Source: an uncultured Clostridia bacterium (GTDB lineage: Bacteria; Bacillota; Limnochordia; Darwinibacteriales; DTU012). Taken from it: 64,000 bases of DNA. The translations under genes and the position numbers were made by a program. Of the stretch, positions 1-31,314 are shown one piece after another (positions within the stretch are counted from its first letter, which is position 1; each line of letters starts with the position of its first letter). The stretch spans positions 1-64,000 of the forward strand of contig FIZJ01000039.1 in NCBI GenBank assembly GCA_900019385.1, in the 5' to 3' direction. The notes below the pieces were generated by a model. It saw only the letters and a program-made list of their open reading frames with translations, was not told the origin of the DNA and did no database searches.

Positions 1-66
1 CAGACAAGCACCGACGACAAGCGGCGGTACCAGGTGGAACAGATCAAGACGGCAGGTGATTCTTGA
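1..66 (+). CDS. 3' end of an upstream gene (partial, unidentified)
   Basis: The first 21 codons of the window read openly in frame 1 and end at a TGA at 64-66. The visible C-terminal residues are polar and charged (ending KTAGDS). The stop overlaps the ATG of the Nudix gene by one base (TGATG), which is the normal look of translational coupling in an operon. The family cannot be recognised from 21 residues. Confidence 0.5.
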   Translation, partial: QTSTDDKRRYQVEQIKTAGDS

Positions 67-593
67 TGTATTTTGACGATACCCTGGGGATACAGGAGCG
101 GACAGGGCAGGCGGTGGTTGCGCGGGAAGCGGTGAGAGGGATTGTGCTTAGAAACGGGCGGATCCTGATGGTTCAATCTGAGCGCGGCGATTATAAGCTC
201 CCCGGCGGCGGTGTGGAACAAGGCGAAGGCCACCACCAGGCATTGGCCAGAGAGATTGCGGAAGAGACTGGCTATCAGTGCCTGCGGGTTGGAGACCTGA
301 TCGGCCGGGTGGTGGAAAGGCGCCCTGACAAGTATGATCCAAGCCTGCTGTTTGAGATGACCTCGTATTACTACCTGTGCGCGGTTGCCGGCGAGGCTGG
401 GGAACAGCGCCTGGATGAGTATGAGCGGGACATGAGGTTCACACCGGCATGGATCAGCATTCCTGATGCTTTGGCTGTCAACCGGGCAGTTCTTGAAAAC
501 TTGGGACAGAAAGACTTGTGGACCCGCAGGGAGAACCATGTCCTCTTGGCTTTGCAGCGGCTTGTCGAATCAGGTGTTGATCTGAAAACATGA
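66..593 (+). CDS. Nudix hydrolase
   Basis: A 175-residue Nudix-family pyrophosphohydrolase, predicted cytosolic. Such enzymes cleave a nucleoside diphosphate linked to another moiety; the substrate cannot be deduced here. The Nudix box lies at about residues 48-70: a glycine, five residues, a glutamate, seven residues, then REIAEETGY, which fits the REUxEExGU consensus completely. The core strand with LPGGG precedes it. The ATG at 66 is preferred over the TTG at 63 because it overlaps the upstream stop in a TGATG junction. A 9-bp hairpin lies directly after the stop. Function beyond the family is inference. Confidence 0.88.
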   Translation: MYFDDTLGIQERTGQAVVAREAVRGIVLRNGRILMVQSERGDYKLPGGGVEQGEGHHQALAREIAEETGYQCLRVGDLIGRVVERRPDKYDPSLLFEMTSYYYLCAVAGEAGEQRLDEYERDMRFTPAWISIPDALAVNRAVLENLGQKDLWTRRENHVLLALQRLVESGVDLKT

Positions 594-623
594 CTGCGCC
601 CCCTGATGTCGGAAGGGGCGCAG
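594..623. terminator. Shared intergenic hairpin between two convergent genes
   Basis: CTGCGCCCC at 594-602 pairs perfectly with GGGGCGCAG at 615-623 across a 12-base loop. It starts one base after the Nudix stop and lies 17 bases beyond the stop of the convergent 31-residue minus-strand gene. Neither side has a strong T-tract, so it may be a weak bidirectional terminator or a 3'-end-protecting stem. Confidence 0.45.
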
Positions 624-640
624 CCGTCTACGAGCCGGTG

Positions 641-736
641 TCAAGCGACAGACCGGATCATGACAAATATGAACAGACAAAACATGACTGCGAGCGTCAA
701 TCTGACCTTGTTGGGCAGTTTTACCGGGTACAACAT
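641..736 (-). CDS. 31-residue single-pass membrane peptide downstream of a c-di-AMP riboswitch
   Basis: Too short for ordinary gene calling. It starts at ATG 736 (minus strand) with GGAGG at 750-746 and a 9-base spacer; an in-frame ATG at 742 sits too close to the ribosome site. The product has a short basic N-terminus (LPNKVR), a roughly 15-residue hydrophobic stretch rich in Leu, Phe, Val, Ile and Met, and a short tail ending RSVA. This is what a single-span inner-membrane peptide looks like. It is the only open frame between the riboswitch terminator (797) and the convergent Nudix gene, so it is the only visible target of the riboswitch. It does not resemble KdpF, the best-known tiny potassium-related membrane peptide. 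The function is unknown. A role in ion or osmotic homeostasis is inference from the riboswitch alone. Confidence 0.6.
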   Translation of the reverse strand: MLYPVKLPNKVRLTLAVMFCLFIFVMIRSVA

Positions 737-796
737 GCACATCAACCTCCTAACCACTTAATCATGCAGCGGTTGGTACAACCGCAGAACAGAAAC

Positions 797-836
797 AAAA
801 AAACGTATGCCCCATCAATTGATGGCCAACATACGC
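797..836 (-). terminator. Intrinsic terminator of the c-di-AMP riboswitch (expression platform)
   Basis: Read on the minus strand, CGTATG and an inner CCATC pair with GATGG and CATACG around an AATT loop. A run of seven T follows at 803-797. It comes directly after the riboswitch aptamer and before the 31-residue gene, so ligand binding can be expected to control read-through. c-di-AMP riboswitches of this class are usually OFF switches acting through such a terminator. Confidence 0.85.
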
Positions 837-837
837 T

Positions 838-962
838 TGGAGCACTCCTACGAGGTTAGCTGCCGGGTTGGGGCACCCAAGTTGCCCTTCCTGCCGTGAG
901 GCAAGATTCACCCCAAAATGATGGTTCCCCCGCTGAGCATATAGCAATTAGGAGATCTCGCA
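838..962 (-). promoter_or_regulatory. c-di-AMP riboswitch (ydaO-yuaA class)
   Basis: On the minus strand the segment contains the conserved blocks of the ydaO-yuaA RNA in the right order: AGCGGGGGAACC, then TTTTGGGGTGAATC, a variable stem, GGGCAAC with a matching GTGCCC, and finally CCCGGCAGCTAACCTCGTAGG. These match the B. subtilis ydaO leader closely by eye. A consensus promoter lies just upstream and a terminator just downstream. The RNA senses cyclic di-AMP; the synthase CdaA is encoded 28 kb away in this same window. The exact 5' and 3' limits are estimates. Confidence 0.93.
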
Positions 963-967
963 CTTCT

Positions 968-996
968 ATTATCCCAGAGTTGGTATGAAGTGTCAA
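968..996 (-). promoter_or_regulatory. Sigma-A-type promoter of the riboswitch transcript
   Basis: On the minus strand there is a perfect -35 TTGACA at 996-991, a 17-base spacer and a -10 GATAAT at 973-968. The predicted transcription start falls near 961, at the first bases of the c-di-AMP aptamer. This makes the riboswitch and small gene an independent transcription unit instead of an extension of the upstream secreted-protein gene. Confidence 0.82.
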
Positions 997-28447: not shown

Positions 28448-29227
28448 GTGAGTTTCACGGTGCTGGACGCCATAGACATCCTGATTGTGGCTTTTGTGAT
28501 CTTCAAGCTGCTTAATGCCATTCGCCATACCAGGGCAGTGACTCTAATCAAAGGTTTGGCCGTTGTCGTGCTTGCAGGGGCTGCCGCCCAGGCATTCGGC
28601 TTGAAGACCGTCAATTGGCTGCTTGATCAAGCCACCACCACAGTTTTTGTGGCCCTGCCCATCGTGTTTTATCCGGAGCTGAGGCGGGCATTGGAGCAGC
28701 TGGGCCAGGGGACCTTGTTCGCCAAAGCGGTTTCCACTGACAAAGCCGATGCCGACATGGTCATCAGCGCAGTGGTTCAAGCCGCTTTTAAACTGAGCTC
28801 CCGGAAAGTGGGCGCTTTGATCGCCATCGAAAGAGAGCTTGGTCTTATGGAGTACGCCGATACCGGCGTCCACCTCGACGCAGTACTCTCGGAACAGCTT
28901 TTGGCAAACATTTTCGAGCCCAACTCACCGCTCCATGACGGTGCGGTGATCATCCGCAAGAAAAGGATCCAGGCAGCGTCATGCCTCTTGCCCCTGACGG
29001 AAACAAGGCTTGAGTCCCAACTTGGCACTAGGCACCGGGCCGCGGTCGGTTTGACAGAGCAGACCGACGCGGTGGTTGTCGTTGTTTCGGAAGAAACAGG
29101 CGCTGTTTCCCTGGCGGTGGGGGGCCGTTTGAGCCGCTATCTCACCGAGAGCAGGCTGCGGGAGCAGCTGCAGGCGTATCTTTACAGGCATGAGCATGCC
29201 CTCGGTTCCAGGGGGATGTGGAGATGA
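28448..29227 (+). CDS. cdaA: Diadenylate cyclase CdaA (c-di-AMP synthase)
   Basis: A 259-residue membrane-bound diadenylate cyclase forming c-di-AMP from two ATP. Three N-terminal transmembrane helices span about residues 5-75, and the DisA_N catalytic domain follows. Both signatures are intact: PLHDGAVII near 160 (DGA) and GTRHRAAVG near 193 (RHR). The GTG start has AAAGGAG nine bases upstream. The order cdaA-cdaR-glmM is the conserved Bacillota arrangement, and CdaR and GlmM modulate CdaA in studied species. The product is the ligand of the riboswitch at 838-962, so synthesis and one sensor are both in this window. Confidence 0.96.
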   Translation: MSFTVLDAIDILIVAFVIFKLLNAIRHTRAVTLIKGLAVVVLAGAAAQAFGLKTVNWLLDQATTTVFVALPIVFYPELRRALEQLGQGTLFAKAVSTDKADADMVISAVVQAAFKLSSRKVGALIAIERELGLMEYADTGVHLDAVLSEQLLANIFEPNSPLHDGAVIIRKKRIQAASCLLPLTETRLESQLGTRHRAAVGLTEQTDAVVVVVSEETGAVSLAVGGRLSRYLTESRLREQLQAYLYRHEHALGSRGMWR

Positions 29228-29925
29228 GGAAGATTGGATGGAGCAGGCTGGCGGGCCATTGGTTTATGCGGCTCAGGGCGTGGTTTAAGGATGAAAACCT
29301 TTATTTCCGGTTTTTCGCACTTTTCTTGGCAGTCATCTTGTGGTTTTTCGCCGGCGGCCACAGCCGCCTGATTCCAGCAGAACCGGCTGCCGCCAAGCGC
29401 CAGCTGGCTGTGGTTGCAAGATTCGCCGGTGAACTCTCACCTGGGCTGGGGCTTAGATCCTTCGCTGTCGAACCTGAAACCCTTGATGCCAGCATTCCTC
29501 CGGAACTGGCCGGGACCGTGGAGGCTTTGGTCACCGAACCAATCTGGTTAACGGGACTGGCCGCTGGTGAATATGATCTGATGATCGGCGTAGTCAAACC
29601 TCCCAAGGTTGAGCTTGCCGTCCCTGCGGTGGTCCGGGTGAAGCTGGTTATTGCCTGGATCGGAGCGCCGTTTGTACAAGAACAGATGCCGTCACCTGTT
29701 CCGCCGGCACCGTTCCCCGAACCGGAGCCTGAACCTGAGCCGGCACCGGAACCGCAGCAGCCCGAGGAGCCTGCGCCCGGCGAACCGATTCTACCTGTCG
29801 AGCCCGAACCGGAGCCGCGGCAGCCCGAGGAGCCTGCGCCCGGCGAACCGATTATACCTGTCGAGCCCGAACCGAATCACAGCAACCGCTGGATTCCTCC
29901 GCCGAAGATCCCTGATTCGCAGTAA
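29224..29925 (+). CDS. cdaR: CdaR-like YbbR-domain regulator of CdaA with a proline-rich tail
   Basis: A 233-residue membrane-anchored protein. One transmembrane helix (FFALFLAVILWFFAGG near 25-42) is followed by an extracytoplasmic beta-rich region resembling YbbR units, probably one or two against four in B. subtilis CdaR (about 480 residues). From about residue 160 the protein is almost all Pro, Glu and Ala, including a 21-residue unit repeated twice. Such tails often span peptidoglycan. ATG 29224 overlaps the cdaA stop (ATGA). Family assignment rests on position, topology and weak YbbR features. Confidence 0.8.
   Translation: MRKIGWSRLAGHWFMRLRAWFKDENLYFRFFALFLAVILWFFAGGHSRLIPAEPAAAKRQLAVVARFAGELSPGLGLRSFAVEPETLDASIPPELAGTVEALVTEPIWLTGLAAGEYDLMIGVVKPPKVELAVPAVVRVKLVIAWIGAPFVQEQMPSPVPPAPFPEPEPEPEPAPEPQQPEEPAPGEPILPVEPEPEPRQPEEPAPGEPIIPVEPEPNHSNRWIPPPKIPDSQ
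29758..29880 (+). repeat. 63-bp tandem repeat in the cdaR proline-rich tail
   Basis: Two adjacent copies (29758-29820 and 29821-29880) are nearly identical over their first 54 bases, with one visible C/A difference. They encode QPEEPAPGEP followed by ILPVEPEPE or IIPVEPEPN. Confidence 0.88.
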
Positions 29926-29973
29926 AGCCGCGGGGTGAAACAGGAATAGAGTCAGATGAGGAGGTTTTGGAAA

Positions 29974-31314
29974 ATGGCAAGATTATTTGGTACTGACGGA
30001 GTTCGCGGAGTGGCGAACAAGGAACTTACACCGGAACTGGCGCTTAAGCTGGGGAGAGCGGGGGCAGTTGTCCTGGCTGAAAAAGCGAAGCGGCGTCCGA
30101 AAGTCCTGATCGGCAAAGACACCCGCATCTCAGGCGACATGCTCGAAGCCGCGCTCATCGCCGGCACCACCTCGACTGGGGCGGACGTTTACCTTTTAGG
30201 AGTGCTGCCCACCCCGGCGGTGGCTTACTTGACCAAGCTGCTCAAGGCAGATGCCGGAATCATGATCTCCGCATCCCACAATCCTGTTGAGGACAACGGC
30301 ATCAAGTTTTTCGCCGATACTGGATTCAAACTTTCGGATCAGACCGAAGATCAAATCGAAGAGCTGATCAAGACCGGAGTGGGCTCGTGTCCGGTCGGTG
30401 CTGACCTGGGCAGGGTGTACCATCAGGAGAACGCTCTGGATTTATATATCGACTATCTATTAAGCACTGTTGATCTGAATCTGGAAGGGCTGCACATCGC
30501 AGTTGACTGTGCCAACGGCGCGGCGTCCATTGCCGCCCCGGCCGTACTGAAAAAGCTGGGCGCCCGGGTTTCGGTGATCAATAATCAGCCCAACGGGATC
30601 AATATCAACGTCAACTGTGGTTCGACCCACATTGAAGTGCTGCAGGAATATGTAAGGCAGGTCAAGGCCGACTTCGGCTTCAGCTATGATGGTGACGCCG
30701 ATCGGGTCCTGGCCGTAGATGAACAGGGCAATATAGTGGACGGCGATCAGATCATGGCCGTCTGCGGGATGCATTTACTTACCCAAGGGCGTCTGCCTCA
30801 CAGAAAGATAGCGGCCACTGTTTATTCCAACGGCGGGTTGAGCCAAGCCTTGGAACAGGCAGGCGGCGAAGTAGTCACCACCGCCGCCGGCGATCGGTAT
30901 GTCCTGGAGGCTATGCTTGAGCACGGGCTGGCTCTCGGTGGCGAACAGTCGGGGCATATCATTTTCCTTGAACACGGCACCACCGGAGACGGAATTCTCA
31001 CTACGCTTCAGCTTTTGTCGGTGGTGGAACAGTCAGGCAAAAAACTGTCAGAATTGGCACAAGTCATGCCTATCTATCCCCAACTGTTGAAAAATGTCAG
31101 GGTGACGTCGAAAGAGGGTTGGGATCAGAACCCGCGGATCTGCCAGGCCATCGACGATGCCAAGGCCCAGCTTGGGCCGAAAGGCCGGATTTTTGTCAGA
31201 GCCAGCGGCACAGAACCGAAAATCCGCGTGATGGGGGAACACCCCGACGCTGAGCTGCTTTCCCAAGCGGTTGACAAAGTAGTGGAGGCAATCCAGGCTG
31301 AATTGGGGGCTTGA
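29974..31314 (+). CDS. glmM: Phosphoglucosamine mutase
   Basis: A 446-residue enzyme converting glucosamine 6-phosphate to glucosamine 1-phosphate for peptidoglycan precursors. LFGTDGVRGVAN starts the protein, the phosphorylated serine lies in ISASHNPVEDNGIKFF near 100, the Mg-binding DGDADR is near 240, GEQSGHI near 325, and the phosphate loop RASGTEPKIRVM near 410. ATG 29974 has GAGGAGG nine bases upstream, which excludes ATG 29956. It closes the cdaA-cdaR-glmM cluster. Confidence 0.95.
   Translation: MARLFGTDGVRGVANKELTPELALKLGRAGAVVLAEKAKRRPKVLIGKDTRISGDMLEAALIAGTTSTGADVYLLGVLPTPAVAYLTKLLKADAGIMISASHNPVEDNGIKFFADTGFKLSDQTEDQIEELIKTGVGSCPVGADLGRVYHQENALDLYIDYLLSTVDLNLEGLHIAVDCANGAASIAAPAVLKKLGARVSVINNQPNGININVNCGSTHIEVLQEYVRQVKADFGFSYDGDADRVLAVDEQGNIVDGDQIMAVCGMHLLTQGRLPHRKIAATVYSNGGLSQALEQAGGEVVTTAAGDRYVLEAMLEHGLALGGEQSGHIIFLEHGTTGDGILTTLQLLSVVEQSGKKLSELAQVMPIYPQLLKNVRVTSKEGWDQNPRICQAIDDAKAQLGPKGRIFVRASGTEPKIRVMGEHPDAELLSQAVDKVVEAIQAELGA

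Follow-up and report, generated by a model that had tools for sequence, protein, structure and literature searches.

A conserved c-di-AMP riboswitch unit encoding a 31-residue, probably membrane-spanning peptide, with a ribosome site co-adapted to the aptamer

The window (the whole stretch of 64,000 nucleotides that was analysed) carries close to its beginning a compact unit on the minus strand, in which a promoter, a c-di-AMP riboswitch, an intrinsic terminator and a ribosome site precede a gene of only 31 codons (Table 1). The riboswitch is in leader position with a promoter before it and an expression platform behind it, and the promoter is the sole promoter-like site that a consensus scan finds within positions 500-1100. 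The match to RF00379 is full length (model positions 1-134 of 134) at a cut-off of 38 bits, and it is the only match in the whole genome (2.17 Mb, 97.7% complete). An earlier note on this DNA had placed the promoter, aptamer, terminator, ribosome site, frame and downstream hairpin where they are listed here, and all six were recovered.

Table 1. Features of the riboswitch-peptide unit and of the c-di-AMP synthase region in the window
Feature	Positions	Strand	Details
Nudix gene	63-593	+	convergent with the riboswitch unit
Hairpin able to end the peptide transcript	592-625	-	13 pairs, tail ATGTTTTC
31-codon gene MLYPVKLPNKVRLTLAVMFCLFIFVMIRSVA	641-736	-	ATG at 736 to TGA at 641; basic N-terminus, one membrane-type helix
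Ribosome-site element AGTGGTTAGGAGGTT	744-758	-	SD GGAGG at 750-746; reverse complement of 957-943, G-U pairs included
Intrinsic terminator	797-835	-	hairpin at 835-804, followed by a run of seven T (803-797); -13.6 kcal/mol, z -3.8
c-di-AMP (ydaO/yuaA) riboswitch aptamer	829-964	-	RF00379, 84.6 bits, E 2.9e-18
Aptamer 5' strand GATCTCCTAATTGCT	943-957	-	able to pair with the ribosome-site element at 758-744
Sigma-70-type promoter	968-996	-	TTGACA-17-GATAAT, TG before the second hexamer; 11/12 matches
cdaA, c-di-AMP synthase (DAC domain)	28448-29227	+	PF02457, 149.6 bits at 28778-29128
cdaR-like gene	29218-29925	+	after cdaA; assigned by eye on gene order and sequence
glmM	29956-31314	+	after the cdaR-like gene; likewise assigned by eye on gene order and sequence

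Two further observations were made around the unit. CUUGG in the loop of the GGGCAACTTGGGTGCCC hairpin can pair with CCAAG before the terminator (CCAAGCG behind P1, window 840-834); this was seen by eye throughout the class and is likely a tertiary aptamer contact abutting the terminator. Upstream of the unit and on the same strand, at 1027-1515, lies a gene for a 162-amino acid secreted-type protein, which is kept beside the peptide unit in two species of the genus (G002 and G004).

A search for the riboswitch covered 40 relatives, and the DNA downstream of about 70 riboswitches was inspected. The peptide gene was found at eight loci in seven species, at each of them immediately following a c-di-AMP riboswitch: five are in the genus, one in each of its genomes (the window genome G000 and G001-G004), two in a species of another genus (G005) and one in another family (G011). 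A profile search through 73 genomes of the class gave the same eight loci, all at riboswitches, and otherwise one weak, chance-like match (E 0.003) within a frame of 165 amino acids. A protein search of a wider collection of genome contigs yielded unconfirmed stretches only, and a DNA pattern combining ribosome site and N-terminus hit three contigs, equal in length to the peptide contigs of G004, G003 and G002. Terminators homologous to that of the window are present at all eight loci (z -3.0 to -6.4). The neighbours of the unit vary between species; within the genus it is bracketed by MutS-like genes (a family named by eye), and the genes in between vary. In the f1 species the peptide gene has no co-directional gene close behind it, and a second small gene comes after it in one of the seven species (G011). 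The two loci in G005 (L072 on C129 and L079 on C51) have near-identical peptide genes behind different aptamers, both near contig ends, and may reflect a recent duplication, a strain mixture or an assembly artefact.

The consensus of the peptide is MLxPVKLSNKVRLxLAxLFCLFxFxxxRFxx, in which L7 and R12 are invariant. Ratios of pN/pS, which leave out the mis-anchored rows of L035 (G003), range from about 0.17 to 0.62 for pairs within the family, where synonymous sites are near saturation, and reach 0.81 when the distant G011 is one of the pair. The stretch behind the terminator was shuffled 2000 times with its dinucleotides kept, and no shuffle contained an SD-preceded frame of 25 or more amino acids with an equally hydrophobic span. 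On these sequence comparisons the 31-codon frame is to be regarded as a real gene under purifying selection. That the frame is untranslated and the unit makes a short regulatory RNA only is a reading with hardly any probability left, as amino acids are conserved despite near-saturated synonymous changes and the SD and the start are conserved as well. The earlier note had proposed that a c-di-AMP riboswitch serves a single tiny membrane peptide. This arrangement holds: riboswitch, ribosome site and frame are kept together in relatives from two genera of the family and from a second family, and the proposal thereby withstands two of the refutation tests that the note had set. The riboswitch-peptide unit is real, conserved and unusual.

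The AlphaFold2 model of the peptide consists of one helix at residues 9-30 (mean pLDDT 86). The maximum hydropathy over 15 residues is 2.97 in the window peptide and 2.6-3.3 in six homologues, with a basic N-terminal part. By prediction there is thus one hydrophobic helix of membrane length, as in single-span membrane peptides, and the peptide is probably single-pass and N-in. Searches of Pfam, NCBIfam, PHROGs and the PDB gave no credible family match. The sub-threshold Pfam matches (TrkA_TMD, Fung_rhodopsin and CbtB) are explained by hydrophobicity alone, and viral contigs gave no confirmed homologue that would point to a viral origin. SpoVM is presumably alike in being a short peptide with a KLP motif; this resemblance is set aside in view of the long hydrophobic span of the window peptide and the negative NCBIfam search.

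Size, the one hydrophobic span and the basic N-terminus would also suit a product of the type I toxin kind, which acts on the membrane and reduces its potential or the growth of the cell. This is quite improbable: the consensus scan of 500-1100 shows no promoter-like site on the plus strand for an antisense RNA, so the locus does not qualify as a type I toxin system, toxin and phage families give no match, and the gene is single copy and kept throughout the genus behind a riboswitch.

The host has what is needed to produce c-di-AMP, with two DAC-domain proteins (CdaA on the contig of the window, C39, and a DisA-type protein on C7) and a PgpH-type phosphodiesterase domain, and its genome also encodes TrkA/TrkH. 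The cdaA gene is a source of the ligand and lies outside the riboswitch-peptide unit. In another genome of the same family (G006) a riboswitch precedes a TrkH/KtrB-type gene, therefore K+ control by this class of riboswitch exists nearby, and in two genomes of the genus (G000 and G003) the peptide unit is all that the c-di-AMP riboswitches lead to. TrkH was considered as an obligate partner of the peptide and this is weakened by G004, which bears the peptide with no TrkH match.

A target in c-di-AMP turnover itself was weighed as well, with the peptide as a feedback modulator of CdaA or of the membrane phosphodiesterase PgpH and not of an ion transporter. Both membrane proteins are encoded in all nine family genomes, TrkH is missing from one that bears the peptide, and cdaA is on the same contig as the unit, about 28-33 kb away, in G000, G001 and G004. 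This linkage is loose, however, and CdaA and PgpH are also found in three family genomes that lack the peptide, so that this role is considered unlikely. The idea that the peptide is a KdpF-like stabilising subunit of a K+ pump draws on its similar size and on the published arrangement of riboswitch and kdpF in the riboswitch-kdpFABC operon of B. thuringiensis. It is the least probable of the readings, close to negligible, and is rejected, since KdpA was found in none of the nine family genomes and neither Pfam nor NCBIfam gives a credible match of the peptide sequence.

Folding of the full-length leaders points to a second feature of the unit, which the earlier note did not mention: the SD pairs with the 5' strand of the aptamer. 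In the window, 957-943 lies opposite 758-744 with 15 consecutive pairs, several of them G-U, and five further pairs extend this helix to the start codon. The duplex reaches -24 kcal/mol and ranks first of 63 ribosome sites tried against the window aptamer. In the other relatives that bear the U, 9-12 pairs of the helix are kept. The aptamer strand at 943-957 contains CCTAAT in place of the CCGAA(T) that other copies in the class have. Six of the eight peptide loci combine CCTAAT with a matching TTAGGAG at the SD, and the T occurs at no other locus of the class; it is also present in some aptamers elsewhere in the phylum. At G005:C129 a U-G pair has become U-A and a G-U pair A-U within the helix, and pairing stays complete.

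A rival account is a terminator-only OFF switch, in which c-di-AMP ends transcription and the complementarity of SD and aptamer is a by-product of CUCC in P1, GGAG in every SD and shared descent. It agrees with the studied ydaO switches of Bacillota, which work by termination, with the strong terminators at the peptide loci and with the two outlying peptide copies (G011 and G005:C51), which have no extended SD pairing. The universal CUCC/GGAG match was separated by pairing each aptamer 5' strand with its own ribosome site and with exchanged ones. Own pairs in the class stand at -12.75 kcal/mol as compared with -10.64 for swapped pairs (z -7.0 by permutation, related loci taken as independent). 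With the same treatment of related loci, own pairs also fit better within genomes (p 0.0004, and p 0.009 without the peptide loci) and within gene families (p 0.0002, whether or not the peptide loci are included). CUCC and GGAG are common to own and swapped pairs and yet own pairs fit better, whereas in the rest of the phylum they are no better than swapped pairs (p 0.40). Furthermore, a conserved AAGTNGTTAGGAG element upstream of the gene and CCTAAT occur together at six peptide loci and at no other locus of the class. A switch by termination alone is for these reasons somewhat unlikely, although it is the strongest of the rival accounts.

The advantage of own over swapped pairs is greatest near the aptamer's 5' terminus, where z is -6.0 and -5.5, and weakens further in. 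Neither arm of the terminator shows a clear fit signal, and no co-adapted antiterminator was found between the terminator arms and any window of the aptamer. The energies of P1 and of the SD helix refer to stretches of unequal length and their comparison is a hint only. An SD-sequestering riboswitch would have its SD paired with the aptamer in one ligand state; here the complementarity of the two computed from sequence is strong and co-adapted. The better fit of own over swapped pairs of aptamer and ribosome site makes a second gate, at the level of translation, likely.

The preferred reading, to which about an even chance is given, is that the locus is a self-contained c-di-AMP response unit with two regulatory layers, whose sole product is a peptide of 31 residues, probably crossing the membrane once with its N-terminus inside, that has a membrane target in K+/turgor or c-di-AMP homeostasis. 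In the first layer, the aptamer with bound c-di-AMP would favour the terminator as in studied ydaO switches. From this analogy we infer that the window aptamer binds c-di-AMP and that c-di-AMP promotes termination, as has been published for kdp in B. thuringiensis (PMC6488665). Full-length mRNA would then be made mainly at low c-di-AMP, that is at low K+ or high osmolarity.

The second layer would act in the full-length mRNA, where the SD region and the 3' strand of P1 may compete for the 5' strand of the aptamer, so that the ribosome site would stay partly covered as long as the aptamer is not folded around its ligand. Judging from the geometry, the SD helix would exclude P1; the SD would thus be hidden when the aptamer is unfolded and freed when the ligand holds P1. 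With termination in the first layer and release of the SD in the second, the two layers would be opposite in sign. A translational c-di-AMP riboswitch has been published for nlpC in C. glutamicum, whose authors suggest the reverse sign for the CTCC/GGAG pairing (PMC9960051), and a precedent for an incoherent riboswitch is SAM-II of metA in S. meliloti (PMC9373788).

The peptide itself might insert in the membrane and adjust a protein there that serves K+/turgor or c-di-AMP homeostasis, which is plausible from its size, its topology and its regulon. The earlier note's suggestion of a regulator of a transporter or of turgor is neither favoured nor contradicted by these findings. The unit suggests a little-studied route linking tiny proteins to c-di-AMP signalling, and with SD and aptamer co-adapted, a translational layer in c-di-AMP riboswitches of the terminator type can be put to a direct test.

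The peptide is one of several small proteins encoded behind c-di-AMP riboswitches in the order, and the others were likewise absent from the earlier note. An SD-preceded frame of less than 100 amino acids stands ahead of any longer gene at 33 of 64 riboswitches in the order as compared with 2 of 59 elsewhere in the phylum. Short frames of membrane type number eight in the order, equal to the number of peptide loci, and none elsewhere. In a sister family (f3), each of 17 genomes has one gene for a small soluble protein of about 47-59 amino acids with the motif E.HPR[QH]K. These genes are located 25-130 bases behind RF00379 matches at L064, L048, L017, L019, L023, L046, L043, L014, L006, L013 and others (G010-G034); most loci were inspected directly, and the remaining ones are no more than 250 bases away from RF00379 matches. 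One member was scanned and has no match in Pfam or NCBIfam, and the family was never found together with the membrane peptide in one genome. Compared with the remainder of the phylum, the order places far more of its c-di-AMP riboswitches in front of small proteins, and this provides a short list of unstudied effectors.

Other genes were also seen behind c-di-AMP riboswitches. Zinc-ribbon-like small proteins of about 55-63 amino acids with two CxxC pairs are encoded singly at L026, L029, L058, L059, L061 and L070 and as the first of two genes at L011, L018, L022 and L060, where the second encodes a conserved protein of about 100 amino acids with LPDPKPGN and ETVYDVCY motifs and no Pfam family match. 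Veg-like genes (PF06257, one member) are found at L009, L010, L032, L044, L021, L028, L052, L054, L056 and L068; at such loci in f1 a conserved SD and ATG, which open short, non-conserved frames, come first behind the switch.

It is tempting to extend the two opposed levels to the class as a whole, with termination at high ligand and release of the SD when ligand binds the completed mRNA. Transcripts made at low c-di-AMP would then be translated as c-di-AMP rises, a pulse gate driving small effectors such as the membrane peptide in the genus and the HPRQK proteins in the sister family. This generalisation is speculative and considered doubtful.

Several known systems resemble the unit in part. 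Single-span regulatory micropeptides such as KdpF and MgrB resemble the window peptide in size, and KdpF is also linked to K+, but no sequence relation was found. In B. thuringiensis a c-di-AMP riboswitch with a terminator likewise stands directly before the gene of a short membrane peptide, kdpF, which however opens a K+ pump operon, whereas the window peptide stands alone in a genome without KdpA (PMC6488665). The leader of metA in S. meliloti also combines a terminator and an SD, and there mRNA stability and translation are reported to be regulated oppositely; aptamer, ligand and geometry differ from the window switch (PMC9373788). The nlpC riboswitch of C. glutamicum is similar in its proposed control of translation, with CTCC of the riboswitch pairing with GGAG of the ribosome site, but it lacks a canonical terminator, is proposed to turn OFF by exposure of CTCC and has a wall peptidase as target (PMC9960051). 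With the c-di-AMP (ydaO/kimA) riboswitches of RF00379 the window switch shares the aptamer score and core, the sigma-70 promoter and the intrinsic terminator as expression platform. Their targets are a transporter, a wall hydrolase or an enzyme, whereas the window switch has a single 31-residue peptide as its target, CCTAAT instead of CCGAAT in its aptamer and an SD that is co-adapted with the aptamer 5' strand.
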